Shown in pieces: positions 4,296-31,687 of a stretch of DNA of 32,032 nt. Where the stretch lies: assembly GCA_024275095.1 (NCBI GenBank), contig JAJRZV010000108.1, positions 1 through 32,032 of the forward strand, read 5' to 3'. The notes below the pieces were generated by a model that was not told the origin of the DNA, searched no databases, and worked only from the letters and a program-made list of their open reading frames with translations. The translations under genes were made by a program, and so were the position numbers. The DNA comes from a bacterium. GTDB lineage: Bacteria; JAJRZV01. The first letter of the stretch is position 1. Each line of letters opens with the position of its first letter.

Positions 4296-4807
4296 GCCTT
4301 CACCTCGATTTCAACAAGTTCCACCCGTCCTTCCACCCGGTCGTTCTCTTTTACATATACCTTTTTAACAACACCACGCGCGGGAGACCGAATTTCATTC
4401 TCCATCTTCATGGCTTCAAGTGTAAGCAAGACACTGTTCTTTTCCACCTTATCTCCCTCTTTAACCATAAGCCGAACGATACGGCCCGGCATGGGTGAGC
4501 GTACAACTCTGTGGGCACCACCGGCTTCGCCTGCACTTTGCTGGATACTGGCTGAAGGAACACGCGTAAAACGCAGTTCCCACCGCTTCGCACCTGATGT
4601 AACAACTGCTTCATCACCACTCCTTCGCATATAAAATCGAACGGCATTACCATTAACGTTGGCAATGAAAAATCCTCCGCCAAGGTCCCTGATGTTCACA
4701 CGATATTCATTTTCACCCACCTTAATGGTGTATTCTCCGGGTCCACTCTCATTTACATAAAGACCTATTTCCTGTTCTTCTCGGGATATATACAGTGGTT
4801 TTCCCAT
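4292..4807 (-). CDS. Biotin carboxyl carrier protein of acyl-CoA carboxylase
   Basis: The last 70 or so of 171 residues form a biotinyl/lipoyl domain: SPMPGRIVRLMVKEGDKVEKN, then EAMKMENEI with K134 as the expected biotinylated lysine. The first 100 residues are a linker/BT-type region seen in carriers of propionyl-CoA carboxylases and related decarboxylases. The protein shuttles carboxybiotin between the biotin carboxylase and the carboxyltransferase encoded just upstream. The ATG at 4807 has AAGGAAG ahead of it and lies four bases after the biotin carboxylase stop; its own stop overlaps the mutase start. This is one operon with the carboxylase. Confidence 0.92.
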   Translation of the reverse strand: MGKPLYISREEQEIGLYVNESGPGEYTIKVGENEYRVNIRDLGGGFFIANVNGNAVRFYMRRSGDEAVVTSGAKRWELRFTRVPSASIQQSAGEAGGAHRVVRSPMPGRIVRLMVKEGDKVEKNSVLLTLEAMKMENEIRSPARGVVKKVYVKENDRVEGRVELVEIEVKA

Positions 4808-4811
4808 GGCT

Positions 4812-5303
4812 TCACACTTCCTTTCGGCGTTTCAACGAATGCCATCTCCCCTTCAAGCGCCACACGGAATTCTCCGACATGGTAAAAAGCGGGGAATGAT
4901 GCTTTACAAGTTCTGTATATGCAGCGGCCACAGCAACCGCTTCCTCCGGGCTGATCTCCTCTTCTTCAGTCTGGAAACCTTCAGCAAGAGAAGTATGAAC
5001 CCGACCTTCTACAAAATCGGGATTGGCCAGGAGCCAGAGGTGAAACGGCAGGGTTGTATAAATACCGGCAACTTCCAGCTCTTCCAGGGCTCTTTTTGCA
5101 CGCCGAATCACGTGACGGCGATCTTTTCCGTGAATAATAATCTTGAGAACAAGAGGGTCGTACTCCATGGGTACCACCCCGCCCTCCTCCACTCCGGAGT
5201 CAACACGAATTCCAGGACCTGCAGGTACTCTTAAGTGTGTGATCACTCCAGGCGTGGGCACGAAACCATTGAAAGGATCCTCGGCATTAATTCGGAATTC
5301 CAT
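4812..5303 (-). CDS. accC: Biotin carboxylase, C-terminal part (after in-frame TAG)
   Basis: This segment begins MEFRINAEDPFNGFVPTPG, which is the conserved start of the biotin carboxylase C-terminal domain (EFRINAEDP), not the start of a natural protein. It is in the same reading frame as the segment at 5340-6320. Between them lie one TAG (5342-5340) and 12 sense codons. Read through the TAG, the product is about 502 residues, normal for a long biotin carboxylase subunit, and the spacing from the ATP-grasp core to RINAEDP looks normal. The ATG at 5303 has no convincing ribosome site, so separate translation is doubtful. The end is coupled to the biotin-carrier gene. Nonsense mutation, base-call error or readthrough remain open. 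Confidence 0.85.
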   Translation of the reverse strand: MEFRINAEDPFNGFVPTPGVITHLRVPAGPGIRVDSGVEEGGVVPMEYDPLVLKIIIHGKDRRHVIRRAKRALEELEVAGIYTTLPFHLWLLANPDFVEGRVHTSLAEGFQTEEEEISPEEAVAVAAAYTELVKHHSPLFTMSENSVWRLKGRWHSLKRRKEV

Positions 5304-17157: not shown

Positions 17158-17362
17158 GTGAGACTTTCGCTGAGATTCCAGCTTGACCCTGGAGAACTCA
17201 TCCTTCCCCTTTCATACAACCACCTTGTCCAGGCCATGATCTACAGCAACATAGACAACTCCATAGCTCACTGGCTCCATGACAGGGGCTTTGCTTTTGG
17301 TAAGCGGAGGTACAAACTCTTCACCTTCTCAAGGCTCCTGTCAAAAAAACGGCGGCTCAACC
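17158..17362 (+). pseudogene. cas6: 5' remnant of a second cas6 gene
   Basis: The first 68 or so codons match the start of the intact Cas6 encoded at 28472: LPLSYNHLVQAMIYSNID versus FPVHYNHILQGFIYSCID, and GKRRYKLFTFSRL versus GKRRFKLFTFSRL. Cas6 cuts CRISPR precursor RNA; this piece holds the N-terminal half of the first RAMP fold, including the histidine in the same place (H41), but lacks the rest and the glycine-rich loop. The two copies differ at many residues, so this is an older or foreign cas6, not a recent duplicate. After about 17355-17366 the sequence turns into transposase. The frame stays open to 17922, so a 254-residue chimera could still be translated, but I read it as decay. 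Confidence 0.75.
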
Positions 17363-17922
17363 GGGACATACGTGAGGACAAAAGAAGGCATGTGGTGGTT
17401 CCTCATAAACGTGATGACTACTTTTCCAGATTCACCCTCTCTTGCCACAGCACGTTTTCACTTTCTGCGAAAGAAGGAATAAAAGCCCTTGAAAAGGCTT
17501 ATGAAAAAGCAAAAAGCCTTCACTCAAGCTCTTTTGAAGGTCTGGCTACCCTGCTCACAGATAATGGGTCTACATTCATCGCAAAACAGTTCAGGGACTT
17601 TCTCAAAAAACACTTTGAAAACTTCTTCAGGCACATCAAGGTGAAATACAGATCACCTGAGCAAATTGGAGTGATCGAGAGATTTCACCAGAACCTGAAG
17701 CAAGAAGCCTTCTATCCCGCTGAAGTGCAGAACGTACTTCACCTGATAAACACGGTGGAACACTACACCTGGTACCCGGGCTCGCGCAGGCCCCCCTGGG
17801 CATCAGGACTGAGAACACCGGCAGAGGTTCATCTGAATAAATCTTTTCACGAGATCAGAAAATTGGGCTTTGACTCAAATGTTACGGGATATAAAACATC
17901 CATCCAGGAGATGCACGCATGA
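17363..17922 (+). mobile_element. 3' remnant of an rve-type (IS3/IS481-like) transposase
   Basis: The DDE integrase core is recognisable. In the +1 frame it reads TYVRTKEGMWWFLINV; in the frame of the upstream cas6 remnant it continues as DDYFSRFTLSCHSTFSL, LLTDNGSTF (second aspartate), SPEQIGVIERFHQNLKQEAF (catalytic glutamate) and GLRTPAEVHL. The change of frame near 17415 indicates a small deletion. The N-terminal helix-turn-helix and the first catalytic aspartate, normally just before TYV, are gone; the breakpoint falls exactly there. It is therefore a dead insertion-sequence fragment. I could not identify terminal inverted repeats. It sits between broken cas6 and a broken toxin-antitoxin pair. 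Confidence 0.75.
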
Positions 17923-18343: not shown

Positions 18344-20056
18344 GTGGAAGAGATTTTGATGAGCATTAAAAATTTTTATAAAAGTTATTTAATGATCTCC
18401 AATCCTCATAAATACCAGGAGTTTACGTGGGAATGTATTAAAAGATTAAACTTTCCCCTTTTTATAAAAGCACCCACTGGCTCAGGAAAGACAGAGGCTG
18501 TGCTGGCACCGTTTCTGTCACAATTTATTGACAACAATTTTACTATCGCTCCAAGGATGATATATGTTTTACCAATGAGAGTTCTGGTTAATTCTCTTGC
18601 TGATAGAGTTAGACAATACACCCGAAGAATAAATCCTCATATTTCTGTGGAGGTTCAGCACGGGGATGTTCCTAATTCCCCGTTCTTCATGGCAGACATA
18701 ATTTTTACCACTCTGGACCAGTTCGTCTATGGCTTTGCAAGGGCAAGCGGACAGGTGGGAAGGCATATAGATATTCCTGCAGGCGCCATTGCATCTTCAC
18801 TGGTGGTTTTTGATGAGGCCCACATGTACAGAGATGAATTTACATTTTCAATTATGAGGGCTGTAATGGAGATATTATATAAGAGCAATATTCCTTTTGT
18901 TGTAATGACAGCAACCATGCCAGAAACTCTTGAAAGAAGCCTTTTTGAAAATATCAATATGCCTGAAGATTGCAAAATATCTGCTTCAATACCTGCCAGT
19001 AACACGCTTGACTTCTATCTTGAGAAAGGACCTTTATATTCTGATGATGAAGTGAATATTCCTGAGGTAATTTTAGATAAAATCAGAGAAAAGAAAACTT
19101 TAATCGTTGTCAATCAGGTTAAAAGAGCACAGAAGATTTATGAAGATATTAAATTGAGGCTTAATCTTAACGACAAACAAATTGTTTTACTGCATTCACG
19201 GTTTACAAAAGCAGATAGAAAAGACCATGAAGAACAAGCAATTTCGTTAATCCCGCGCAAAAAGGATGGGAAAATTGTAATCCCTGAAGGCGTAGGAATT
19301 GTTGTCTCAACGCAGGTTCTCGAGGCAGGCATTGATTTTTCGGCAGAATTTTTGCTGACTGAACTTGCCCCTGCTGATTCACTGGTTCAGAGAGCTGGGA
19401 GATGTGCAAGATATGAAGGCGAAAGGGGGGAGATGGTAATTTTCCCGGTGGATGGAAAAGACAGGAATCATCTGCCTTACAAAAAAGAGCATTTAGAAAA
19501 AACGCTTGAGTGGTTGAAAAGAAATGAACAGTTTAACATTAAAAATTTTAATGAAGTTTGCTCTTTTGTTAATGAAACACTTGACTATCAGGCTAATGAT
19601 TATGAAGCAAGGGATACTTTGATTGACCTCTATGAGTGTGTTCTTTATGCAGATAGCAAACCAGATAATATTCAGGTGAGAAAAAGCAAACCTGTAAGAA
19701 TATTAGTTGTAGATTTTTCTCTTGGTATTGAAAATAAAAAATACAGGAAAAAGCAAAAAGACGAAATAGAAGAAATAGTAGAAAATTCGATAAAGAAAAC
19801 AAACATTCATGAAAATACTTTTGATACTGATATTGGGGTAGCATGGTCATTGTATAATAAAAAATTACTTAAATGGGAGTTAAAATGGGAACTTGATAAA
19901 GAAAAAAAGAAAAATTGGAAACTAATCTTTATAAAAAAAGATAATCCTGATGAAGAAGATATCAAAATAAGCCCTTTCAAAACTTATATTTTGAATGCAG
20001 AGAGCAACTATACTTCAGAAAAAGGAATAATTAACGATGACAGCTTTATTATCTAG
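18344..20056 (+). CDS. cas3: CRISPR-associated helicase Cas3' (stand-alone)
   Basis: The 570-residue superfamily 2 helicase has Walker A KAPTGSGKTEA (residues 42-52), DEAH box VVFDEAHMYRDE (157-160), motif III MTATMPETL (about 188) and motif VI QRAGRCAR (349-356). There is no HD nuclease domain; that is supplied by the next gene, the split arrangement typical of type I-A. Cas3' unwinds DNA flagged by Cascade. The GTG at 18344 has GAGGG upstream; ATG 18359 is an alternative. The 3' end overlaps cas3'' by 20 bases, so the two subunits are likely made in step. It is the first gene of the cas operon. Confidence 0.93.
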   Translation: MEEILMSIKNFYKSYLMISNPHKYQEFTWECIKRLNFPLFIKAPTGSGKTEAVLAPFLSQFIDNNFTIAPRMIYVLPMRVLVNSLADRVRQYTRRINPHISVEVQHGDVPNSPFFMADIIFTTLDQFVYGFARASGQVGRHIDIPAGAIASSLVVFDEAHMYRDEFTFSIMRAVMEILYKSNIPFVVMTATMPETLERSLFENINMPEDCKISASIPASNTLDFYLEKGPLYSDDEVNIPEVILDKIREKKTLIVVNQVKRAQKIYEDIKLRLNLNDKQIVLLHSRFTKADRKDHEEQAISLIPRKKDGKIVIPEGVGIVVSTQVLEAGIDFSAEFLLTELAPADSLVQRAGRCARYEGERGEMVIFPVDGKDRNHLPYKKEHLEKTLEWLKRNEQFNIKNFNEVCSFVNETLDYQANDYEARDTLIDLYECVLYADSKPDNIQVRKSKPVRILVVDFSLGIENKKYRKKQKDEIEEIVENSIKKTNIHENTFDTDIGVAWSLYNKKLLKWELKWELDKEKKKNWKLIFIKKDNPDEEDIKISPFKTYILNAESNYTSEKGIINDDSFII

Positions 20057-20768
20057 CCCCGAAGAGGAATATAGATTTCATATAGAAAGATGTAAAGAAA
20101 AATTAAACCTCCTCTTCCATGTATTTGAACTTACATTAAAAAGGATATTTGGAATAGGGGATAATAAAATGCTAAAAGATGCTGTTTTAAATATGGTTCT
20201 TTATCATGACCTCGGTAAGTTAACAAAAAGATGGCAGGATAATGTTGGAACATCTCGTAAACTCCCTTCTCATGCACCCATAGGAGCAGGATATTTATAT
20301 AAAAAATTTACTAAAGAAAAGATCCCTGAAGATTTGAAGAATGCGATTTGTTTTGCAGTAGCTATTCATCATACTGACAAGGGACTGCTTGGAGATAACA
20401 TAGAAAAACCCGATGTCCAGGCTATATTAGAAGATGTAGCAAATAATTATGGAGAAATAATATGGGCAGATGAAGCAAAAACTTTAGGAGATGAATATTT
20501 TGATTCTCTTGCAGAGAATTTAACAATTTATGATTTAAAAGAAATGGCAAGAGGATTAAGAATATGGGCACTAGGGGATTCTATTATCCATCAACATAAA
20601 AAACGATTACAGGCAACCCTTATGCACCATATATTGAAATTATGTGACATTTCTGCCGCTTTGGAGAGGAAAGCATATAAAAAGAAGGAAGAGGATTACT
20701 ATGGTGGGTGGTTGATGGTGGAGGGGATAAAAAAATACATGGATAATGTTAAACAAAGAGGTGTTTGA
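20037..20768 (+). CDS. cas3: CRISPR-associated HD nuclease Cas3''
   Basis: The 243-residue HD phosphohydrolase-fold nuclease has metal ligands in YHDLGKL (H57, D58), SHAPIG (H79) and AIHHTD (H111, H112), in the order seen in Cas3 HD domains. With the helicase Cas3' it should degrade target DNA after recruitment by the type I complex. The gene starts inside the helicase gene and ends directly before the Cas10-like gene (TGAATG), so it sits between the type I helicase and a type III-like block. That position leaves open which complex it serves. Confidence 0.9.
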   Translation: MTALLSSPEEEYRFHIERCKEKLNLLFHVFELTLKRIFGIGDNKMLKDAVLNMVLYHDLGKLTKRWQDNVGTSRKLPSHAPIGAGYLYKKFTKEKIPEDLKNAICFAVAIHHTDKGLLGDNIEKPDVQAILEDVANNYGEIIWADEAKTLGDEYFDSLAENLTIYDLKEMARGLRIWALGDSIIHQHKKRLQATLMHHILKLCDISAALERKAYKKKEEDYYGGWLMVEGIKKYMDNVKQRGV

Positions 20769-22724
20769 ATGGCAAAAGAATTTATCCCTGAACTGCATGA
20801 TATTGGTAAGCTTATTGACAAAGAGAAATTAAAACAAGAGAATCTTCAATGGAGCAGACATACTTTTGAAGATTTTGATTTTAACCAGGCGGGCTTTGTA
20901 AAACCAACTTCCCCTTCTTGGTGGGGCCAATATCATCACAGGATAGATGTAAATAAGGATTTAAATGACTGGACACATATTGATGGTAACCATAAACCCG
21001 ATCTATTCTTATTGATATTGGCTGATCATCTTGCTTCTTCAATTTCACGAGCCTTACCACAACTGGGGAGTGCAGGAGAATCGGACAGTATTCTAAAACT
21101 TTGGAACCATGGTTATTCTGAAAATCAACGAAATAAAGGTAAACATTGGGCAGCATTTAAAACAAAAGATGATTTAAAGAGTATGTTTGAACTTATTGAC
21201 AGCATTACATCATATAAAGATTTTTTAGATGCGTATCGAGAGAATCTTCTCTTAACCCCGGAAGATAAATCTATACCAAGAAATATCACTTCTCTTTTTA
21301 CTCACATTAAATTGGTAGGAAAGATATATCGAGTTCTCAAAAGACATATCTTAATTAAAAATAATGGCAAGAGAATTTTATTTGAACTATCTGGAGAACA
21401 AGTAAAAAGTATTAGAGAAACAGAAGGGGGCAACAGAACAACTGGAAACCAAAATGTTGATAAAGGCAGATGGCAAGCAAGATTTGTCAAATGCCACATA
21501 AAGTTCCCACACTCTTTTGTTAGACTTCAAGACATCAATCTATTAGTTAAAAGGAATAAATTGGTTTCTAAACTTGTCGATAATTATGAGGATTATGTGA
21601 TATTCTATAATCCCGACTTCTTATTTCTTTTTCTGCCAATGGGGATAGAAATAGAAGATATATTCAAGGAGCTTCTAAATCTTAAGTTCTTTATTGACTA
21701 TGTAGAAATAATCGCAGATCTGGGCATTCTACGATCAAATCTTGACAGCAAAATCATCAGAGCAAGAAGGGATAGAGATATTCAAACTCTTAATGTCCTT
21801 CAAAATAGAAAATCAAAGGTTTACAAAAAGATACTTTTACCTGAATTTCCAGAGAAAATTTATCCCCCTATCTGTGACATTTGCCAGAGAGAACGAGCTA
21901 CAGAGAGAGCAAAAGAGAATATAAGAGAATGGCTCTGTGATAAATGCCAAAGTATAAGGGATATGGATGAGCCTTTTAGAGAATATGCTGAATGGACTGA
22001 TGAAAAAGTGGTCTGGTTAAAGTTTAATTTCAATCAGGATAAGTTAGAAAAATGGTTACAGGAAGCCTTTGAAGAATACATAGATAAAATACCAAATTTA
22101 GAAAATGGTCAAGTATTGAAAGAAGAATTCCGTTCCTTGGCACCACAGATGGATTTTATTAACGATTATGAAGAGATGCTATTAAATTTTTGGCAACGGT
22201 GTTCAGAGGACGATATTAAGAGACCGATATCAAATTATAATGAGATTGCAACATTTAAATATTCAGGACTCCTTATAATGAAAATAATAACACTCTTTAT
22301 AGAGCTACATGATGCTTATTTCCTCGACTGTAAAAGTAACACAGATTCTCCTATAAGCTTATCTTTGAGTATTGCTCATCATAAATATCCCATTCGTGAA
22401 CACTGGAGATATTTTGAGAATCCAATAAATTTTTTAAATATTAGGTATCATAATGTTTTTAAAGAGAACTATACTAAGGAAGAAGCTAAAGAGATAATAG
22501 AAAAATTAATAACCTCTGAAAAAGTCTCATCGCATTTTCTCCATAACTTGATTGCTTTATATGAGGAATTAGATTCTGAACTTCATATTGCAATAGAATT
22601 ACTCAACAATAGGAAGAAATATCCAGAGCCTTTTGAATTATATTCAAGGCTTGGCATCCCGCCGGTAAAATTCCTAAATTTTTGTAGAATAGCGGAGGAA
22701 GAAAAAGATGTTCTTCAGACTTAA
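20769..22724 (+). CDS. cas10: Cas10-like large subunit with HD domain and no GGDD motif
   Basis: Three Cas10 features are visible in 651 residues. An N-terminal HD domain (ELHDIGKLID with H10/D11, WGQYHHR, LILADHLASSISR) comes first. A four-cysteine zinc finger follows (C369, C372, C390, C393). A C-terminal palm piece reads SLSLSIAHHKYPIREHW, matching the conserved AHHKxP block that follows GGDD in Cas10. The GGDD motif itself is absent: where it is expected the sequence reads TFKYSGLLIMKIITLF. In active Cas10 the GGDD palm makes cyclic oligoadenylates, so this one should not signal. It resembles Csx11/type III-C or III-F large subunits, though it is short for Csx11. It is coupled to cas3'' (TGAATG) and overlaps the next gene. 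Confidence 0.75.
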   Translation: MAKEFIPELHDIGKLIDKEKLKQENLQWSRHTFEDFDFNQAGFVKPTSPSWWGQYHHRIDVNKDLNDWTHIDGNHKPDLFLLILADHLASSISRALPQLGSAGESDSILKLWNHGYSENQRNKGKHWAAFKTKDDLKSMFELIDSITSYKDFLDAYRENLLLTPEDKSIPRNITSLFTHIKLVGKIYRVLKRHILIKNNGKRILFELSGEQVKSIRETEGGNRTTGNQNVDKGRWQARFVKCHIKFPHSFVRLQDINLLVKRNKLVSKLVDNYEDYVIFYNPDFLFLFLPMGIEIEDIFKELLNLKFFIDYVEIIADLGILRSNLDSKIIRARRDRDIQTLNVLQNRKSKVYKKILLPEFPEKIYPPICDICQRERATERAKENIREWLCDKCQSIRDMDEPFREYAEWTDEKVVWLKFNFNQDKLEKWLQEAFEEYIDKIPNLENGQVLKEEFRSLAPQMDFINDYEEMLLNFWQRCSEDDIKRPISNYNEIATFKYSGLLIMKIITLFIELHDAYFLDCKSNTDSPISLSLSIAHHKYPIREHWRYFENPINFLNIRYHNVFKENYTKEEAKEIIEKLITSEKVSSHFLHNLIALYEELDSELHIAIELLNNRKKYPEPFELYSRLGIPPVKFLNFCRIAEEEKDVLQT

Positions 22725-23322
22725 AGTTCATATAGATTCTATAGTAATTGGAGAAAGAATTAAAGGCGGAACTTATAGGCCTTGCCTGGAAACAATTCCT
22801 TCTTCTACCATCAAAGGTGTATTCAGGCACTTCTTTGGTAAAGATGTTAAGGGAGTAGGCCATTTTGAAAAAGGAACCTATGAGCAAAAAGAGCTAATCT
22901 ATTCTGTGAAGGATAAATATCTTGAAGCTGCTAAAATGCCCATTATTTCTAGTTATTTAGCACCAAAGAATACAGAAAAAATAAAGGCAGATATTTTTAT
23001 TGTTAAAGAAAATCATATCACTAAAGACATGTTTGATAACTTTATCTTTACAATGGGGGGATTGAAAAGCAGAGGTTTTGGTAGATCTGAGGTAATAAAT
23101 GTTGAAGAAGTGACACCACAAATTAAACAGGGATGGTTAAAAATCAGGATATTTGAAGATGAAGTTGAATATTTTGCGATACAAGCTTTGTCTCCTCTTT
23201 ATGGCTACCTTTTTCATCCGACTGATTTTGTTTCTGGTTTTTATAAAAGAGCATTGTTCGAAGGAAGTCTTGTAAAAGCACCAGAGATATTTTTAGAAAA
23301 GGAGAGCTATTATGATGAGTAA
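22708..23322 (+). CDS. Short Cas5-like RAMP protein (Csx10/Csm4 group)
   Basis: The 204-residue RAMP protein has two marks of the superfamily: TIPSSTIKGVFRHFF (residues 29-43), the usual loop after the first strand, and a glycine-rich loop MGGLKSRGFGRSEV (116-129). Size and place, right after a Cas10-like gene, fit a Cas5-group subunit that caps the crRNA 5' end and contacts Cas10. It is shorter than usual Csx10 or Csm4 proteins. The gene starts 17 bases inside the Cas10-like gene with GGAGGAAG upstream, and overlaps the next gene by 11. I cannot place it in a named subfamily. Confidence 0.65.
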   Translation: MFFRLKVHIDSIVIGERIKGGTYRPCLETIPSSTIKGVFRHFFGKDVKGVGHFEKGTYEQKELIYSVKDKYLEAAKMPIISSYLAPKNTEKIKADIFIVKENHITKDMFDNFIFTMGGLKSRGFGRSEVINVEEVTPQIKQGWLKIRIFEDEVEYFAIQALSPLYGYLFHPTDFVSGFYKRALFEGSLVKAPEIFLEKESYYDE

Positions 23323-23869
23323 AATGGATTTAATCCTCCGAAAGGTATTAAACGATCCAGATATCTTCTGGATAAGGAAAGAAATTTTTAAGAAGGACGA
23401 ATGGAGCGATTTAAGAAAGGATTTAGGAAAGCCAGAAGAATTTAATAAAAAAGTAGATATCAAGATACAGAAGTTAGAAGAAGAGAAGAATAAGGAACAG
23501 GATAATAAGAAAAAGAAAACAATTGAAGCTGCGATAGAGCAATGTAAAGGGATTAAAACCACTTTAGAACAAAATCCATATCTTGTTAAACAACTGTTTG
23601 ACAATCTTGAGTCCTTTGGAATAGTTCAAAGTAATCTTCCTAATATGGATGATCATGGGAAGATAATAGAGAGACACAACTTTTCTATAGTTGAGCAATT
23701 TTTCTTGGACAAAATAAAAAGAGAAAATAACCCACACAAGAAAAAGGCTCTTAAAAAAATTCTAGGATATTTTAAAGAACTGGCTGAATTTAATCAATCC
23801 ATTTTAGAAATAGCCTTTTTCGTTAGAAAACTCGATTCATTACAGAAATTATGGGAGATATCAAAATGA
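23312..23869 (+). CDS. Helical, charged protein; possible small subunit (Cas11-like)
   Basis: I do not recognise the family. The 185 residues are rich in lysine and glutamate (KKVDIKIQKLEEEKNKEQDNKKKKT), look helical, and contain no RAMP or nuclease motif. Type III and type I-A complexes have a small helical subunit (Csm2, Cmr5, Csa5) that lines the target strand. This is the only gene in the locus that could fill that role, and it lies between the two RAMP genes of the type III-like block. No separate csa5 is seen beside cas8a. Start is ATG 23312 or 23315; GGAGAG lies upstream. Function is inferred from position only. Confidence 0.5.
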   Translation: MMSKMDLILRKVLNDPDIFWIRKEIFKKDEWSDLRKDLGKPEEFNKKVDIKIQKLEEEKNKEQDNKKKKTIEAAIEQCKGIKTTLEQNPYLVKQLFDNLESFGIVQSNLPNMDDHGKIIERHNFSIVEQFFLDKIKRENNPHKKKALKKILGYFKELAEFNQSILEIAFFVRKLDSLQKLWEISK

Positions 23870-23899
23870 ATGCATTAAAAGTAACTCTATAATGGAGAA

Positions 23900-24721
23900 A
23901 TGGAAATAAACTTCAAGCAAGAGGGTAAGGTAGAACTATTGCTTTTGCCTATATGTATTACTGTTGAAGAAGGCTCTTTTCTCCATATAGGAACGGCTCC
24001 TTCACCCCTGACAGAAAAGAAAGGAGCCATTTTTAAAGTTGATAGAATACCGGTGATTCCTGCTACAAGTTTCAAAGGTGCTTTGAGAAATCAATTAGAA
24101 TTGCTGTTGATAGAAAAACTTACTGAACTCAAGGAAAGCCTTAAGTTGGATGATGACAATATTCTTAAGCCCTGCGTTCCAGCTCCAAGACCTACCAGAG
24201 CTGAAAAAGAGCTAATAAATTCAGGAACCTATAGAGGAGATCATTGTGAAATTCGGTCAGATGAAGAAAAGATAGAGGTAGGCAATTCAGGTATTTGCCC
24301 TGTTTGCTACTTTATGGGAGCAACAGGAATAATGGGTTTCTTAAGATTTACAAACTTTTATGCTGAAGAAGGAGATTGGTTAATTGATCAAATTAACATC
24401 AGAATAGATAGAAAAACAGGCACTGCAGCACATCGAGCGAAAGTTGATGGTGAACAGGTTAAACCGGGCACAATTTTTACTGGAGCAGTTGAACTAATAA
24501 ATAAAACACCTCAAGGTTTTGAATTTGGACACCCAAGAAAGATAGGCAACGTTATAATAGATAAATGGTTAGAAAAGCGGGCTGACCAAGATAACAATCG
24601 CAGAAAAAAGATCCTGATTGAGAAAATTCTCCTCCCCGCTATTCAAAATGTTAAACTTTTAGGTGGGCAGAAAAGTAAAGGAGCAGGAAAAGTTAAAGTT
24701 GAAATAATAATAAATGCTTAA
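23900..24721 (+). CDS. Csm3-like Cas7 RAMP backbone protein
   Basis: The 273-residue RAMP protein of the Csm3 kind has VIPATSFKGALRNQ (residues 52-65), cysteines C92, C116, C133 and C136 (ICPVCYFMGA, likely zinc site), RIDRKTGTAAHRAKV (168-182) and the glycine-rich LLGGQKSKGAGKV (253-265). In type III complexes Csm3 forms the crRNA-binding backbone and cuts target RNA with an aspartate in the loop before the IPGSS segment. Here that loop reads IGTAPSPLTEKK with no aspartate in the expected place, so RNA cleavage may be lost; the alignment is by eye. It is the only backbone RAMP in this block. The ATG has TGGAGAA upstream. Confidence 0.75.
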   Translation: MEINFKQEGKVELLLLPICITVEEGSFLHIGTAPSPLTEKKGAIFKVDRIPVIPATSFKGALRNQLELLLIEKLTELKESLKLDDDNILKPCVPAPRPTRAEKELINSGTYRGDHCEIRSDEEKIEVGNSGICPVCYFMGATGIMGFLRFTNFYAEEGDWLIDQINIRIDRKTGTAAHRAKVDGEQVKPGTIFTGAVELINKTPQGFEFGHPRKIGNVIIDKWLEKRADQDNNRRKKILIEKILLPAIQNVKLLGGQKSKGAGKVKVEIIINA

Positions 24722-24732
24722 AGGATAAAATT

Positions 24733-26169
24733 ATGCTTACCCTTTACACCCCGGCAACAGGATTTCCAGATTTGGAGATAAAGATTGCTTATGGATTGGC
24801 GAGGGTGGGGATTGAGGCTGGGGCTGAAGTTTCTATCGTGCCACAGATTGGTTTTTATGAAGTTGTTTTTAATTCACTTCCTCATGTCTCGTCTCTGAAT
24901 AAAACATTTCATATTCTTTTGAAACGTATTCTTTCTAATAAAAAATTTTATAATTTAGGAGTCAAAGCAAGGTATAGAGCTGTATATCTTCCAGTTGATA
25001 TTAAAAAGAAAGACTTTAAAACTCATCTTTTAAAAATTGACCTGTCCAGTTTATATAAGCCTGCTAACATAGAAAAATATTTTGATTTCACGAGAGATAA
25101 AGCGTGTCATCATAAAAAAAATCCCAAATTTGGATCAACACAAAAGAATGCAAAAGGATTAGGGGGGTTGATACTACTTGCTTCTGTTCATGCAGGCAAA
25201 CCTCAGTATAGAGACAACAGGAAAAGAGATTTAAATTTGGGGTTGTGTGAAGCATGTGGATATCTCAATGTATTGGGGAAAGAGTCCTTTTCCTTTGAGA
25301 TTCAATTAGGAAAGGGTAAAAATAGAAAGTCTGTATGGGTTCTCCCTATCCCGAATAAAAAATTAGAAAACAAAAATATCCTAAGTTTGCTATCTCTCCA
25401 GAAGACATTACATAATTTCTGGCTTTCTGATTTGATACCTCTAAGGACTTTTGCTGTGGGATTATTAGCCAAGATTCCTTCACTTAGCGATATAATTGAA
25501 GAGTTAGAATTGAGTTTTCACCTCTCGTTAGTTTCAAAAAATAATAGAGGTGACACAGTTGTAGAACAAACAGCAGTTGTAAATACAATGCCATTTTCGA
25601 AGTTTATTACAAACTCACCATATAATTCTGTTACTTTGGAAAGATTATTATCAGGTCAACCCAAAGTTCCATCTTTGATTAAAATTGTAGATATACTTGA
25701 GAATAACAAGGGAAAGGATTTACCAACATTCGCCCGCCTCTATGTTCAGGAAACATCATCAGATAACCGGGTAAATCTTTTATACCCGGAAACAACAAAA
25801 TATCTTTTAAAGGAGGTTGCTATGATTGATTCAAAAATCATTGAAAACCCCGCACTGGAGAGTCTCGCAAGGACTCTCCGATATTTTATAAAAAAACGAA
25901 AATATAGTTATGCTGATGACATCAGAAATGCAAAAAAAGAATCCAGAGATTTTGAAGAGACAATTGCAAAGATGTTGAGAGAAGGAAAACTCAGGCTTGA
26001 ACAAGAAGAGATGATTCACCTTCCAGATACAGAAGAAATAAAGGAAGTATTTAAACTCGCTAATGAAGATTTTGAAAGCACAAAAACTGCGCTTGTAATC
26101 CTTGCCTTTTCATTTCCTTCAAGGGATGAAAAAGAGCAAAAAACAACACAGGAGGTCCAAAATGCTTAA
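24733..26169 (+). CDS. cas8a: Type I-A large subunit Cas8a (Csa4-like)
   Basis: The 478-residue protein fits the Csa4/Cas8a2 family: N-terminal MLTLYTPATGFPDLEIKIAYGLARVG, a possible zinc site (CHHKK near 128, then LCEACGYLN), and a C-terminal ENPALESLARTLRYFIKKRKYSYADDI with a helical acidic tail. Cas8a is the large subunit of the I-A Cascade and recognises the PAM and recruits Cas3. It is followed directly by cas7 and cas5, the expected I-A order. The ATG has AAAGGA upstream, eleven bases after the Csm3-like gene, so both effector blocks are in one transcript. A Cas8a1 or Cas8b relative is possible, but the Csa2-type Cas7 next door supports I-A. Confidence 0.75.
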   Translation: MLTLYTPATGFPDLEIKIAYGLARVGIEAGAEVSIVPQIGFYEVVFNSLPHVSSLNKTFHILLKRILSNKKFYNLGVKARYRAVYLPVDIKKKDFKTHLLKIDLSSLYKPANIEKYFDFTRDKACHHKKNPKFGSTQKNAKGLGGLILLASVHAGKPQYRDNRKRDLNLGLCEACGYLNVLGKESFSFEIQLGKGKNRKSVWVLPIPNKKLENKNILSLLSLQKTLHNFWLSDLIPLRTFAVGLLAKIPSLSDIIEELELSFHLSLVSKNNRGDTVVEQTAVVNTMPFSKFITNSPYNSVTLERLLSGQPKVPSLIKIVDILENNKGKDLPTFARLYVQETSSDNRVNLLYPETTKYLLKEVAMIDSKIIENPALESLARTLRYFIKKRKYSYADDIRNAKKESRDFEETIAKMLREGKLRLEQEEMIHLPDTEEIKEVFKLANEDFESTKTALVILAFSFPSRDEKEQKTTQEVQNA

Positions 26170-27100
26170 ATTTGTAACTTTTGCCGTAAAGGTGCAATTA
26201 AATGTGCATGATTTAAACAATGAAGCAGTAGCAGGTAATGTGACTGATATAAGGGTAATGGAGTTTCTTGATGAAAATGGAAAAAGGCAGGAAGCACCTG
26301 CGGTGTCAGGCAGAATGCTCAAACATTGGCATTGTGAAGGAATTAGACACCTAATAATAAGTGGCGAGTATTCCACCATTCCTCTCTGTGCAGGGTGCAA
26401 AGCAGGAGAACCAATAAGACCCGGTATGATTAATAATGGCAATCTCTCTCAAAATTCGGGTATTACAGAAGAGGAAGCTGTTCAAGGTTGTATAGTTTGC
26501 GATACCCATGGCTATTTAATTGCAACACCTGAAACCACGGCGGGGGAAGGTGGTGTCTCCGCACGGAGAAGTTCACGAGTTATGTTCTCATGGCTTATGC
26601 CTGTTATGGGTATGGAAGCAGTTTCTAAACAGGTAATTCATAACAGAGTTTCTGCTGACCCTAAAACAATGATGCCTTTCAACAAATCCTATGCCTCTGG
26701 CATTTATGCTTTTGTTTCTGCTCTTGATGTGGATAGAATTGGACTTGTTGAATTAAATCTTGGAAGTGATAATCCCTATGCAGTGGATGATAACAACGGA
26801 CGAAAAGACAGAATAAAAGTTGCTATTGAGGCATATCGCTATCTTATATCAGGACAGATAGGAGCGTCCCTATCACATGCCATTCCTCATTGGGACCCTA
26901 TTGAGATTTTAGTATGCTATTCTGAAAAAGGACCTTTACCTTTTCCCGTATCGCCGATATATCCTGACTATATTGTGAAAACTCTTGGAGTTATGCCTGA
27001 GGGAACAAGTTTCCTATACACTGGAAAGGATTCCCCTGAGGGAGTGAATAAAAAAGAAAAGATAGATGAAATCTTTAGGGAATTGTTGAACAAGGTATAA
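26162..27100 (+). CDS. cas7: Type I Cas7 backbone protein (Csa2/DevR family)
   Basis: The ATG at 26162 has a perfect ribosome site (AGGAGG) and gives 312 residues beginning MLKFVTFAVKVQLNVHDLNNE. Family marks are NVTDIRVMEF, APAVSGRMLKHWH, two CxxC pairs (LCAGCKAGEP, GCIVCDTHG), SARRSSRVMFSW and the late FNKSYASGIYAF. This is the DevR/Csa2 Cas7 type that coats the crRNA in I-A/I-B Cascade. It overlaps cas8a by eight bases and is followed by cas5. It is unlike the Csm3-like RAMP two genes upstream, so the operon encodes two different Cas7-type backbones. Confidence 0.92.
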   Translation: MLKFVTFAVKVQLNVHDLNNEAVAGNVTDIRVMEFLDENGKRQEAPAVSGRMLKHWHCEGIRHLIISGEYSTIPLCAGCKAGEPIRPGMINNGNLSQNSGITEEEAVQGCIVCDTHGYLIATPETTAGEGGVSARRSSRVMFSWLMPVMGMEAVSKQVIHNRVSADPKTMMPFNKSYASGIYAFVSALDVDRIGLVELNLGSDNPYAVDDNNGRKDRIKVAIEAYRYLISGQIGASLSHAIPHWDPIEILVCYSEKGPLPFPVSPIYPDYIVKTLGVMPEGTSFLYTGKDSPEGVNKKEKIDEIFRELLNKV

Positions 27101-27103
27101 AAA

Positions 27104-27904
27104 TTGCAGGCTCTTGTTTTTGAGATAAGGCTGAATTCACTTTATTCTATTAGACTCCCCTTCACCTGGCAGTCCTCTTTGATCTATCCTGTTCTTCCCC
27201 CTTCCTCAGTTATAGGGCTCGCTGCCAATGCCCTGCAAAGGTATAAAAACAATAAGCATCCCCTTGAATATCTTAAAGAACTTCAAGAGAGGATTGAATG
27301 GGCAGGTTCAAGATTGCTTTTTCCCTGCGTTATAAAGAGTTATACGACTTCAGCTATTACAAAGTGGAAAATTCCCCTGGGTGGAAAGTCTACAAATGCC
27401 CTGGGAAGAGAATTTGCATATAGCAGGGGAATGCAACTTCTTATAATCTATAAAGATGAAGAACTTATTAAAGAGACGGCTTTGGCCTTAAAAACTTCCC
27501 CGATTACAGCTGGAGATAGCGAGTCTCCAGTTTTTATAAACGACGGTCCGTATATAAAAAAGGTTAAAAAATATAATGTAAACAAAGAAGAAACTGTTGT
27601 AACAAATTTTCCTTTTCCTTTTGAACCTCAAAAATTAGAAATAATTGAAGGGAGAGGGTTAGTGTTTCTTTTTCACGAAAAGTGCTTAAAAATTAAAAAT
27701 TTTCCATTGAGAACTTATGTATGTCCTTTGGCGATGGGAAGCAAAAATATAATTTGTCCAGAAACTGTTAAATTAAAATTTAAACAGGAGGCGACAATAT
27801 TTGAGGTAGAGGAAGCAGGTAAAATTGTATTTTTCCCTGCATCAACTGAAGAGTCATCCTGCCCATCTATTAAGAAGAAAGGAGGGGGTAAAAAGAAGAG
27901 GTAA
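27104..27904 (+). CDS. cas5: Type I-A Cas5
   Basis: The 266-residue Cas5-family RAMP has LNSLYSIRLPFTWQSSLIYPVLPPSSVIGLAANALQ at the N-terminus (the pattern of Cas5a), then AGSRLLFPCVIKSYTTSAITKW and a later ALKTSPITAGDSESPVFI. Cas5 binds the crRNA 5' handle and pairs with Cas8a at the foot of Cascade. The start is TTG three bases after the cas7 stop, with no strong ribosome site, so coupling is likely. The last 15 residues are an odd lysine/glycine tail (KKKGGGKKKR). Confidence 0.9.
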   Translation: MQALVFEIRLNSLYSIRLPFTWQSSLIYPVLPPSSVIGLAANALQRYKNNKHPLEYLKELQERIEWAGSRLLFPCVIKSYTTSAITKWKIPLGGKSTNALGREFAYSRGMQLLIIYKDEELIKETALALKTSPITAGDSESPVFINDGPYIKKVKKYNVNKEETVVTNFPFPFEPQKLEIIEGRGLVFLFHEKCLKIKNFPLRTYVCPLAMGSKNIICPETVKLKFKQEATIFEVEEAGKIVFFPASTEESSCPSIKKKGGGKKKR

Positions 27905-27938
27905 CTTTCAGAATGATTTTTGCCTAAATAAAAAGGTA

Positions 27939-28433
27939 ATGCCCCAAGTAACCGGCACACTTATCTGGTATTATTTCATATGCAAGAGGGAGGTGTGGTT
28001 GATGGGTCACGGAATAACTCCGTTCCAGGATAACCCCTTTGTGGAAATAGGGCGCTTGATTCACGAAGAGTCCTACCAGAGGGAAAAGAAAGAGGTAGAT
28101 GCAGGCAATATGAAATTTGACATTATAAAAAAGAGGGATGGCAAAGTTATTGTAGCAGAAGTTAAAAAATCCTCACGATTTATAGATTCTGCCACCATGC
28201 AACTTGTCTTTTACCTTTACAATCTCAAAAAGCAGGGGATTTCAGCAGAAGGGGAACTGCTTGTTCCAAGAGAGAAGAAAAGAATAAAAGTTGAACTTAC
28301 AGAAGATAATATAAAAAAAATTGAGAATGCGATTTCAGAAATCAGGGAAATAACAAACCGCGATATTCCGCCTCCAGTTGTAAAAAACAGGTATTGCAGA
28401 AGGTGTGCATTCAGTGACTTTTGCTGGGCATAA
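27939..28433 (+). CDS. cas4: Cas4 nuclease (spacer processing)
   Basis: The 164-residue RecB-type nuclease has an iron-sulfur cluster: C15 (YYFICKREVWL) and C153, C156, C162 (YCRRCAFSDFC) are the four ligands. Nuclease residues are H42 (GRLIHEE), D61, and E74-K76 in VAEVKKS, followed by Q88. Cas4 trims prespacers and checks the PAM so that Cas1-Cas2 inserts them correctly. I use ATG 27939 since the frame further upstream overlaps cas5 and carries no Cas4 sequence. The ribosome site is weak (AAAAAGG directly before the ATG). Confidence 0.93.
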   Translation: MPQVTGTLIWYYFICKREVWLMGHGITPFQDNPFVEIGRLIHEESYQREKKEVDAGNMKFDIIKKRDGKVIVAEVKKSSRFIDSATMQLVFYLYNLKKQGISAEGELLVPREKKRIKVELTEDNIKKIENAISEIREITNRDIPPPVVKNRYCRRCAFSDFCWA

Positions 28434-28471
28434 ACTGGGAACAAATGTGCATTTTTGATATATTATAAATT

Positions 28472-29218
28472 ATGAGGATTAGAATAAATTTTGAAACCAG
28501 TGAAAGTAAAATAGTTTTTCCAGTTCATTACAATCATATTCTCCAGGGGTTTATATATTCCTGTATTGATGATGACCTTGCAGAGTTTCTTCATGAAAAA
28601 GGATATGTTTATGGAAAAAGAAGATTCAAACTCTTTACCTTTTCCAGACTTATGGGCAGCTGTTCATTTGATAGAAACAATAAAAAACTTGTTTATAATT
28701 CTTCAATTTATTTTATAATTGCATCGCCACTCGAAAGTTTTCTTGAAAGTCTCGTGAGAAATATGCTGAAGGGTGGTGAAATTAAGATGAACTCACAGAC
28801 GCTTTATGTTTCATCTGTGGAGGTTCTTCCTTTACCGGACCTGAACACCACTGCTTCAGTAAAGATAAAGATGCTTTCCCCTATAACAGTTTACAGCACC
28901 CTTACAAAAACAGACGGAAAAAAGAAGACATATTATTACAACCCTTATGAGAGGGAATTTGCAGAGCAAATAACAGAAAATCTCAGAAAAAAATATGTAA
29001 TCCTCAGGGGAAATGACGAAGGATTTGTGTTTGAGATAAAACCCAAAAACGTCAAATCCCGTGATGAAAAGATAATAATCTACAAGCAAACCGTCATCAA
29101 GGGATGGATGGGAACTTATACTGTAAAGGGGAGTATTGATGTTCTGAAAACTGCTTACGATACAGGAATAGGCAGCAAAAATTCTCAAGGTTTCGGGATG
29201 TTTGAGATAATTGGTTGA
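28472..29218 (+). CDS. cas6: CRISPR RNA endonuclease Cas6
   Basis: The 248-residue Cas6 has two RAMP folds: VHYNHILQGFIYSCID and FLHEKGY (candidate catalytic H41), GKRRFKLFTFSRL, and the C-terminal glycine-rich loop IGSKNSQGFGMFEI (residues 233-246). It should cleave the repeat RNA eight bases before each spacer, leaving an AUUGAAAU handle. It is the only intact cas6, so it presumably matures crRNAs for both effector blocks. It lies between cas4 and cas2. No clear ribosome site precedes the ATG. Its N-terminus is matched by the broken cas6 piece at 17158. Confidence 0.93.
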   Translation: MRIRINFETSESKIVFPVHYNHILQGFIYSCIDDDLAEFLHEKGYVYGKRRFKLFTFSRLMGSCSFDRNNKKLVYNSSIYFIIASPLESFLESLVRNMLKGGEIKMNSQTLYVSSVEVLPLPDLNTTASVKIKMLSPITVYSTLTKTDGKKKTYYYNPYEREFAEQITENLRKKYVILRGNDEGFVFEIKPKNVKSRDEKIIIYKQTVIKGWMGTYTVKGSIDVLKTAYDTGIGSKNSQGFGMFEIIG

Positions 29219-29227
29219 GGAAAAGAC

Positions 29228-29491
29228 ATGTTTGTAATTATGGTTTACGATGTAAATGAGAAAAGGGTTACCAGGGTTCTGAAAACAGCGAGAAAGTTCC
29301 TTACATGGGTTCAAAATTCAGTTCTTGAAGGCGAAATCACAGGAGCGAAATATGAAAAATTGAAATACGAAATCAAAAAAATCATAAACGAGGATGAAGA
29401 TTCAGTTATTTTTTATATTTTCAGAACAAGGCTTTACACATCAAGGGAAATAATGGGCGTTGAAAAAGGAAAAGAGGAAGTAATAATTTGA
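29228..29491 (+). CDS. cas2: Cas2 spacer-acquisition protein
   Basis: The 87-residue ferredoxin-fold protein starts MFVIMVYDVNEKRVTRVLKTARKFL with the conserved aspartate D8 after the first strand, then QNSVLEGEITGAKYEKLK and SVIFYIF. These are standard Cas2 features and the length is normal. Cas2 dimers bridge two Cas1 dimers in the integrase that inserts new spacers. It is nine bases after cas6 and six before cas1. Confidence 0.95.
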   Translation: MFVIMVYDVNEKRVTRVLKTARKFLTWVQNSVLEGEITGAKYEKLKYEIKKIINEDEDSVIFYIFRTRLYTSREIMGVEKGKEEVII

Positions 29492-29497
29492 ATTTAA

Positions 29498-30493
29498 ATG
29501 AAAAAGACAATTTACATTTTCTCTAACGGAGAGTTAAAAAGGAAACAAAACACCCTTTATTTTGAATCTTCAGACGGTGGTAAAAAATACATCCCGGTTG
29601 AGAATACAGGAGAAATACTTGTTTTTGGAGAGGTAACTATAAACAAAAAACTTATCGATTTTTTATCTCAGCATGAGATTGTTCTTCATTTTTATAATTA
29701 CTACGGGTTCTACTCAGGCACTTATTATCCACGTGAACATTACAATGCGGGCATAATCTTGTTAAAACAGGTTCAGCATTACCTTGATAATGATAAAAGG
29801 AGCATTCTCGCGAGAGGGTTTGTTAAAGGTGCTTTTGAGAACATCCAGAAGGTGCTTCAGTATTATAAAAACAGAGGAAGCGACCTTGAAGATGAAATAC
29901 AGAGAATATCTGAGTTTGAAGACCTGCTTGAAAACGCGAGTTCAATAGAAGAACTGATGGCTTTTGAGGGTAATGTAAGGGATATATACTACAGGTCATT
30001 CAACAAAATAATTAACAATGAAGATTTTTACTTTACAGGAAGGCGAAGAAGACCCCCGGGAAGCAGGATGGATGCTCTTATAAGTTTTGGCAACTCTCTG
30101 CTTTACACATTTTGTCTTTCAGAGATTTACAAAACTCATCTTGACCCCCGGATTGGTTTTCTCCACGCATCAAATTTCAGAAGGTTTTCTTTAAATCTTG
30201 ATATAGCAGAAGTTTTCAAACCAATTGTTGTGGACAGGTTGATTTTTTCGCTTGTGAATAAAGGTATTTTAAAGAAGGAACACTTTATTGATGAGATGGG
30301 CGGGCTTTACCTTGATGAAAAAGGAAGGAAAATCTTTGTTAAAGAAATAGACGAAAAATTAAAAAGCACTCTCAAGCACAGAAAACTCGGAAGGCACGTC
30401 TCATACAGGACATTAATCAAAATGGAACTTCACAAAGTTGAGAAGCATTTAATAGGTGAGGAAATGTATGCCCCCTTTGTAGCATGGTGGTGA
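29498..30493 (+). CDS. cas1: Cas1 integrase
   Basis: The 331-residue Cas1 has metal ligands E157 (FEGNVRDIYY), H223 (GFLHASNFRRF) and E238 (SLNLDIAEVFKP), all present. The N-terminal beta domain and C-terminal helical domain have normal length. FYFTGRRRRPPGSRMDALISFGNSLLY is typical of Cas1 of type I-A/I-B loci. It inserts spacers at the leader end of the array that begins 168 bases downstream. The last gene of the cas operon. Confidence 0.97.
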   Translation: MKKTIYIFSNGELKRKQNTLYFESSDGGKKYIPVENTGEILVFGEVTINKKLIDFLSQHEIVLHFYNYYGFYSGTYYPREHYNAGIILLKQVQHYLDNDKRSILARGFVKGAFENIQKVLQYYKNRGSDLEDEIQRISEFEDLLENASSIEELMAFEGNVRDIYYRSFNKIINNEDFYFTGRRRRPPGSRMDALISFGNSLLYTFCLSEIYKTHLDPRIGFLHASNFRRFSLNLDIAEVFKPIVVDRLIFSLVNKGILKKEHFIDEMGGLYLDEKGRKIFVKEIDEKLKSTLKHRKLGRHVSYRTLIKMELHKVEKHLIGEEMYAPFVAWW

Positions 30494-30661: not shown

Positions 30662-31687
30662 GTTTGCAGCCTACCTATGAGGAATTGAAATAATATTCGC
30701 TTAAAATTTCAGGAATTAGAACTTCACGTTTGCAGCCTACCTATGAGGAATTGAAATATTTCATGTATATATAGTTCTTTCGGACTCGCCCACTGTTTGC
30801 AGCCTACCTATGAGGAATTGAAATCTATAGAGTCCTCTATGGGGAATTCGCGAGCACTCGTTTGCAGCCTACCTATGAGGAATTGAAATAGGAATATGGC
30901 AAAATACCGGCCTCCAAAGCCGGAGGTTTGCAGCCTACCTATGAGTAATTGAAATCGAGTTCGTCATACCGCCGAGCTACAGCCATCGCCTCGTTTGCAG
31001 CCTACCTATGAGGAATTGAAATTCGCCTCGATAATCCTGTCGGGCTCTCCGCTGCTCGGTTTGCAGCCTACCTATGAGGAATTGAAATTCAAGTATTTTT
31101 CTCATAAGCCTACCGACTATCACAGTTTGCAGCCTACCTATGAGGAATTGAAATCTGAGAGGAATAAAGCTTACAACGGGAGCGAATCTCTGTTTGCAGC
31201 CTACCTATGAGGAATTGAAATCGCATCCATTCTCTGACGCATAAGGGCATTTAATCCGTTTGCAGCCTACCTATGAGGAATTGAAATTAAACTTGCTGTT
31301 CATGGTCTGTTCTAAAAGTCAGTGTTTGCAGCCTACCTATGAGGAATTGAAATCTACTGGCTCTGGGTCGGCCTTGAGAACCTTTTTGTCCGTTTGCAGC
31401 CTACCTATGAGGAATTGAAATATCTCACACCCCACCCTCTTGTGTTGATCCGGGAGGTTTGCAGCCTACCTATGAGGAATTGAAATATGAGAGGTTTAAC
31501 GTCCGCCAGCCCTGTCGTGGGAGTTTGCAGCCTACCTATGAGGAATTGAAATCATCAGCTGGTGCTTCTTCTTCAGTTGAAAGCGTCAGTTTGCAGCCTA
31601 CCTATGAGGAATTGAAATTGCTGATGAGGGGACGATAATATCGGGATACTTCCGCGGGTTTGCAGCCTACCTATGAGGAATTGAAAG
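30662..31687 (+). CRISPR. CRISPR array, 16 repeats and 15 spacers
   Basis: The 30-base repeat begins GTTTGCAGCC, continues TACCTATGAG and ends GAATTGAAAT. Repeats start at 30662, 30728, 30795, 30860, 30926, 30993, 31059, 31125, 31192, 31258, 31324, 31392, 31457, 31523, 31589 and 31658. Spacers are 35-39 bases. All repeats are identical except number 5 (GAGG becomes GAGT at 30945) and the last (final T becomes G), which marks the leader-distal end. The repeat has no strong hairpin, as usual with Cas6 of I-A/I-B and III systems, and yields an AUUGAAAU handle. Spacer 4 (30890-30925) carries a tRNA-Trp anticodon arm and spacer 3 (30825-30859) a short palindrome. Confidence 0.99.

Follow-up and report, generated by a model that had tools for sequence, protein, structure and literature searches.

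A four-gene type III-F CRISPR cassette interrupts a type I-A operon, at the exact junction of cas3'' and cas8a-csa5, in the 32,032-nucleotide stretch of DNA analyzed here (the window; Table 1). The first gene of this cassette had been described as encoding a Cas10-like protein with an HD motif and no cyclase motif, a reading that missed its subtype. Its profile match and those of its neighbors identify the protein as Cas10f, the large subunit of the III-F effector Cas10f-Cas5f-Cas11f-Cas7f, with a single Cas7f. The open reading frame is real (651 amino acids from an ATG start), and its full length is kept in five relatives at 45-55% identity and in one at 25-28%. Assignment to III-A (Csm) was rejected, with TIGR02578 scoring 21.9 bits against a cut-off of 170, GGDD absent, and only one Cas7. 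Searches of the PDB with the Cas10f sequence, singly and as a profile, gave no match.

Profile searches found all of Cas8a, Csa5, Cas7, Cas5, Cas3', and Cas3'' in the surrounding operon, which places it in type I-A. Its genes form a dense run on the plus strand (18344-30493) in the order cas3', cas3'', cas10f, cas5f, cas11f, cas7f, cas8a-csa5, cas7, cas5, cas4, cas6, cas2, cas1, followed by the CRISPR array. From cas3' to cas7 the genes abut, overlap, or lie at most 30 nt apart, the widest gap being that before cas7f: the cas3'' stop codon ends at 20768 and the cas10f ATG begins at 20769, cas5f and cas11f each overlap the preceding gene, and the spacing from cas7f to cas8a is 12 nt. The locus holds one full-length Cas6, one adaptation set, and one array, and since no other full-length Cas6 is seen in the window, this one is presumably common to both effectors. 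Upstream of cas3', an open reading frame at 17158-17922 begins as a Cas6 I-A N-terminal domain (PF21350, 1e-5) and continues as an integrase core (PF00665, 2.5e-6), apparently a second cas6 disrupted by a transposable element. Comparison of the spacers with phages identified no targets, the one match, to a phage tRNA at the E 0.1 limit, being disregarded.

Table 1. Genes, motifs, and array of the nested locus, with window coordinates and the basis for each assignment
Feature	Position	Strand	Basis
cas3' helicase (type I-A)	18344..20056	+	TIGR01587 8e-64; PADLOC Cas3a1 1e-73
cas3'' HD nuclease (type I-A)	20037..20768	+	TIGR01596 2e-15; YHDLGK and HH motifs intact
cas10f, III-F large subunit	20769..22724	+	PADLOC PDLC01558 Cas10a/Cas10f 5e-175, residues 3-640; homologs
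Cas10f HD nuclease H10-D11	20796..20801	+	aligned with Csm1 HD motifs
Cas10f HD residues H31; H56-H57; D86	20859-20861; 20934-20939; 21024-21026	+	Csm1 alignment
Cas10f zinc finger C369-x2-C372 ... C390-x2-C393	21873..21947	+	four Cys invariant in 7 sequences
Cas10f palm beta1 N420-F421-N422, Csm1 D-x-D position (T. thermophilus D550, D552)	22026..22034	+	alignment
Cas10f N489-Y490-N491-E492, most likely GGDD equivalent	22233..22244	+	AF2 secondary structure and one MAFFT register
Cas10f KYSGLLIMKI, GGDD position in the sequence-only reading	22257..22286	+	predicted strand end and helix 500-517 (AF2)
cas5f (III-F RAMP, 204 aa)	22708..23322	+	PADLOC Cas5_IIIf 6e-72
cas11f (III-F small subunit, 185 aa)	23312..23869	+	PADLOC Cas11f PDLC01223 1.5e-48
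cas7f (III-F backbone RAMP, 273 aa)	23900..24721	+	PADLOC Cas7_IIIf 2e-99
Cas7f K41, replacing the Csm3 catalytic Asp	24020-24022	+	alignments
cas8a-csa5/Cas11 fusion (type I-A, 478 aa)	24733..26169	+	PADLOC Cas8a 3e-87, residues 1-343; Cas11 2e-64, residues 346-473; TIGR01878 Csa5 2.5e-29
cas7 (Csa2/DevR)	26162..27100	+	PF01905 3e-49
cas5	27104..27904	+	TIGR02593 2e-5; PADLOC Cas5 7e-11
cas4	27939..28433	+	PF01930 2.5e-59
cas6	28472..29218	+	TIGR01877 2e-43; sole full-length Cas6 seen in window
cas2	29228..29491	+	64-78% to cas2 of related I-A loci
cas1	29498..30493	+	63-72% to cas1 of related I-A loci
CRISPR array	30662..31687	+	16 repeats x 30 nt (GTTTGCAGCCTACCTATGAGGAATTGAAAT); spacers 35-39 nt

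The HD domain of Cas10f carries the complete set of Csm1-type motifs. Its HDIGK (10-14), H31, YHH (55-57), and LADHLAS (84-90) correspond to HDVGK, HT, RHH, and LADTYAS in Csm1 sequences from Thermus and other plasmid-borne III-A loci, which brings H10-D11, H31, H56-H57, and A85-D86 onto the Csm1 motifs HDxGK, HT, RHH, and LADxxAS. All seven aligned Cas10f proteins, the distant L018 at 25-28% identity among them, have H10, D11, H57, and D86 and the zinc finger cysteines C369, C372, C390, and C393; H10-D11 and the four cysteines had been picked out by the sequence-only reading, and both stand. The Cas10f HD domain could be inactive even with these motifs intact.

Loss of the cyclase in Cas10f is strongly supported. 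Because the full-length AF2 model is weak (pLDDT 52.8), residues 389-651 were folded as a fragment from five sequences (pLDDT 78.9, pTM 0.80), giving strands at 413-421, 483-484 (short), 493-497, and 529-537, a helix at 500-517, and a C-terminal helical domain. When this fragment was compared with the PDB by Foldseek, the top hit was P. furiosus Cmr2 (probability 0.98, TM by query 0.48, E 0.017), with Csm1, the minimal CRISPR polymerase, and nucleotide cyclases at lower ranks, and the first 28 hits of the weaker full-length model were Csm1 alone. By sequence the palm resembles Csm1 weakly (hhalign probability about 1-2%), and the predicted homology rests on the modeled fragment and Foldseek.

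The palm block AHHKYPI was correctly recognized from the sequence and aligns to the beta4 region of Csm1. The absence of GGDD is likewise upheld, since no register restores two glycines and two acids in the window protein, and no member of the Cas10f family carries the motif. Where the motif should have been is another matter, and the position originally given for it, KYSGLLIMKI, is probably about eight residues too late. One register (MAFFT globalpair; hhalign) deletes the GGDD hairpin opposite KYSG, with KYS leading directly into the helix, and the other (MAFFT genafpair) puts N-Y-N-E 489-492 at the GGDD position, where close relatives have x-Y-D-E or x-Y-N-E. Csm1 has a strand after its DD pair and a helix eight residues on, and because N491-E492 would be spaced in the same way from the strand at 493-497 and the helix at 500, we prefer the second register, with N-Y-N-E more likely than KYSGLLIMKI to be the GGDD equivalent. 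Three of the four palm acids are then Asn in the window protein and both glycines are gone, the DxD position of beta1 reading N-x-N here and S/N, D/N, or S/D in relatives. Structure prediction and palm comparison, which had been proposed as a check, bear out the cyclase loss and favor a register other than the original one. No alternative acidic pair was found in the palm of the window protein; relatives carry D-E at the hairpin. Profile searches matched no CARF family among the window proteins scanned, in agreement with the earlier reading, and its suggestion that cyclic oligoadenylate signaling has been lost is supported by the loss of the cyclase motif. The methanococcal Cas10f proteins (L007 9992-12166 and L023 8340-10616) have long charged palm insertions of about 60 and 95 residues, probably coiled-coil, between beta1 and the hairpin.

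Cas7f of the window reads EKKGAIFK where T. thermophilus Csm3 has GDLDNPVVR and a III-D Cas7 has LAKDSILK, and the Asp is absent at this position from all five aligned Cas7f proteins of the window lineage. The Cas7 of L018 keeps an Asp there (SGRDNPIARI). Judging from these alignments, slicing appears to have been lost in one III-F lineage and is possibly kept in another. Because the slicing Asp of Cas7f has gone along with the cyclase, the HD domain is the sole apparent catalytic center of the III-F complex, which strengthens a claim first made from Cas10 itself. The second HD protein that was noted beside it, Cas3'', does adjoin Cas10f but belongs to the I-A operon and not to III-F as such.

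When conserved stretches of Cas10f were used to scan 84,980 species genomes, four relatives came up, in two WOR-3 bacteria (L004, L005), a Thermococcus (L006), and a Methanothermococcus (L007), and group searches added L023 (G791; same phylum search as the L007 genome) and the distant L018 (G622; phylum search of L004). III-F Cas10 was absent from 385 other genomes, drawn from random families as relatives within the same domain, so Cas10f is rare. Two thermophile phyla and the 385 genomes yielded no III-F, their sole match being a weak one of 17 bits (L003) that was rejected as not a Cas10. Neither a single-sequence scan of viral contigs and plasmids with Cas10f nor a search of viral contigs with the Cas7f alignment gave a match. 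In L005 (WOR-3 SKW181) the nested gene order is identical to that of the window. III-F also occurs alone, in WOR-3 and Methanococcales: the four genes of L004, L007, and L023 stand by themselves, the stretches examined there showed no CRISPR array, and L006 is interrupted by a contig end. These stand-alone cassettes, together with the repeat of the nesting in WOR-3 SKW181, make III-F a portable unit. The distant III-F locus (L018 8399-15019) has its own cas6, cas1, and array, and its Cas11f (105 aa) falls in a second family (PDLC01224). The genome that carries the stand-alone L004 cassette (G523) also has a solo cas6 (L025 9068-9814), 47% identical to the window Cas6, with no other Cas gene match in its surroundings, where the 7 kb examined also lacks repeats.

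We consider it probable that the III-F complex is a crRNA-guided switch for the Cas10f HD DNase, dead for slicing and signaling, with its cassette lodged in the I-A operon and its crRNAs drawn from the common array and Cas6. Cas6 would process the shared array into crRNAs that load either the I-A Cascade or the III-F complex; Cascade would call on Cas3'/Cas3'', and target recognition by the III-F complex would activate the Cas10f HD DNase with neither target slicing nor cyclic oligoadenylate. We slightly prefer RNA-triggered DNA cutting to direct DNA recognition, on the grounds that the fold resembles that of Csm1, that no DNA-unwinding protein accompanies stand-alone III-F, and that an RNA trigger would complement the PAM-dependent targeting of I-A. 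If the III-F complex cannot slice, however, then another process would have to shut off RNA triggering.

Direct DNA recognition would avoid this shut-off problem, and for that reason a type I-D-like action of III-F, unlikely as we think it, keeps a real share of the probability. Here the crRNA complex would open double-stranded DNA for degradation by the Cas10f HD domain and the neighboring Cas3', which would be common to I-A and III-F. The parts list given for I-D Cas10d in PMC7689449 is the same (HD, no cyclase, a separate Cas3' helicase), cas3' lies in the same operon in both the window and L005, and III-F has been predicted in the literature to target DNA (PMC8036902). Yet cas3' is missing from the 20-22 kb around the stand-alone L004 and L023, no Cas8a-Csa5 homolog was found in the L004 genome, Cas3' here already has a dedicated Cas3'' partner, and Csc1 and Csc2 are absent.

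The embedding of the cassette in the I-A operon and the fact that two of the three type III activities are gone could also be accommodated if the III-F complex only binds, as a regulator or helper of the I-A complex, with the HD domain a structural remnant. This is improbable given that bacterial and archaeal Cas10f proteins all share the core HD residues, down to an overall identity of 25%, and that III-F is found without an I-A neighbor. A live palm, in which the hairpin acidic pair of the alternative register (x-Y-D-E in relatives, N-Y-N-E in the window) makes some nucleotide product, strikes us as more improbable still. The spacing of strand and helix in the AF2 model, like one MAFFT register, does put Y-D/N-E at the GGDD position, Y490 and E492 are invariant among close relatives, and GGDE variants occur among Cas10 proteins judged active (PMC11229360), but both glycines are gone, Asn replaces the first hairpin acid in the window protein, beta1 DxD has become N-x-N there and S/N-x-N/D in most relatives, the distant L018 lacks Y-D/N-E, and the window proteins scanned include no CARF protein. 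That the protein is instead the Cas10d of a type I-D system, as an HD-bearing, cyclase-dead Cas10 adjoining cas3' might suggest, can be dismissed almost entirely, since profile searches gave no Cas10d, Csc1, or Csc2 match for these genes and the neighbors match III-F Cas5, Cas11, and Cas7 profiles.

The position of the cassette is not peculiar to III-F. Four further I-A operons came from a search for the Cas8a-Csa5 fusion in 147 genomes of the L004 phylum. The slot is empty in L036 (G554) and L034 (G621), where cas3'' and cas8a overlap by 4 nt. In G580 a complete III-C cassette occupies it (L044 14673-18500, L035 156-12735), the single-contig order being cas6, cas3', cas3'', Cmr1, Cmr6, Cas10c, Cmr4, Cmr5, Cmr3, cas8a-csa5, cas7, cas5, cas4, cas1, cas2, and the G557 contig, before it breaks off, has III-B genes and a CARF gene next to cas8a. 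The contents of the slot across these loci are III-F (window, WOR-3 SKW181), III-C (G580), III-B pieces (G557), or nothing (G554, G621). In G557, Cmr5, Cmr6, and the CARF protein lie immediately upstream of cas8a-csa5 (L033 3707-8448), and a small nucleotidyltransferase-like open reading frame (4795-5085) lies between cas8a and cas7.

Gene trees do not agree on how the nesting arose. The III-F tree joins the window and L005 moderately (86/90; cas10 alone 93/92), but the cas3 tree joins the window with the empty-site L036 (99/99) and rejects window plus L005 (AU p 0.008). This conflict rules against the nested arrangement as one clade and implies gene reassortment, or parallel insertion or loss. 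The cas3''-cas10f junction is alike in the window and L005 (AACAAAGAGG, 7 nt, ATGG), a resemblance that hints at a single junction in an ancestor, with reassortment or loss afterward. The repeats of the window (30662-31687) and L036 (1-2700) share the core ACCTATGAGG-ATTGAAA, which fits the closeness of their cas3 and adaptation genes, though L036 has no III-F. We propose, tentatively and as somewhat more likely wrong than right, that the cas3''-cas8a junction of the Cas8a-Csa5-fusion I-A operon is an exchangeable type III slot (III-F, III-C, III-B, or none). A single array and a single Cas6 would then serve a DNA-targeting Cascade and a swappable second effector of different chemistry; in the III-F form both complexes would draw on the same spacers, and Cas3' may be common to them as well.

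Cyclase loss with HD retention is already published for III-F, and this protein adds another example. III-F lacks cyclase motifs and effectors and generally has HD (PMC11229360), is predicted to cleave or target DNA, with T. lettingae as the example (PMC8036902), and was without experimental test as of a 2020 review (PMC7694759); our literature searches found no experimental III-F study. Hybrid type I/III loci are recognized in general, and the open-licence literature yielded no description of III-F nested in I-A or of the cas3''-cas8a slot. What this locus adds of interest is the nesting of one operon in another and a slot in which type III cassettes recur. With HD as its apparent sole active site, the complex could show whether an HD DNase is by itself enough for immunity, which is difficult to ask of systems where RNA slicing and signaling operate as well, and the nested operon with its empty-site and III-C counterparts offers a natural comparison of type I and type III effectors combined on one array.

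Among known systems, the closest is III-F of T. lettingae TMO (Tlet_0097-Tlet_0100), which shares Cas10f, Cas5f, Cas11f, one Cas7f, the HD domain, the missing cyclase motif, and the lack of a visible effector gene; in the window the cassette is nested in an I-A operon with shared Cas6, Cas1, Cas2, Cas4, and array. That operon has the Cas3', Cas3'', Cas8a, Csa5, Cas7, Cas5, Cas4, Cas6, Cas1, and Cas2 of type I-A, but its Csa5 is fused to Cas8a and a type III cassette interrupts it between cas3'' and cas8a. Type I-D likewise pairs an HD-bearing, cyclase-dead Cas10 (Cas10d) with a nearby Cas3' helicase, whereas the window has Cas3'' and III-F subunits in place of Csc1 and Csc2. Subtype III-H, distantly related to III-F, shares a cyclase-dead Cas10 with HD and a Cas7 without the catalytic Asp (PMC12669027); by its description, a diverged Cas11 replaces the Cas10 C-terminal domain and adaptation genes are absent, whereas the window has a predicted Cas10 C-terminus (AF2 model), a separate Cas11f, and adaptation genes. 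Subtype III-C also has a cyclase-dead Cas10, and the G580 cassette (L044/L035) lies in the same slot, but its subunits are of Cmr type, and Cas10c reads LHLLGK at the HD motif (with YRDGTGIYF near the expected cyclase motif) while Cmr4 retains its Asp (GRVDLPIIRE), the reverse of the III-F cassette in the window.
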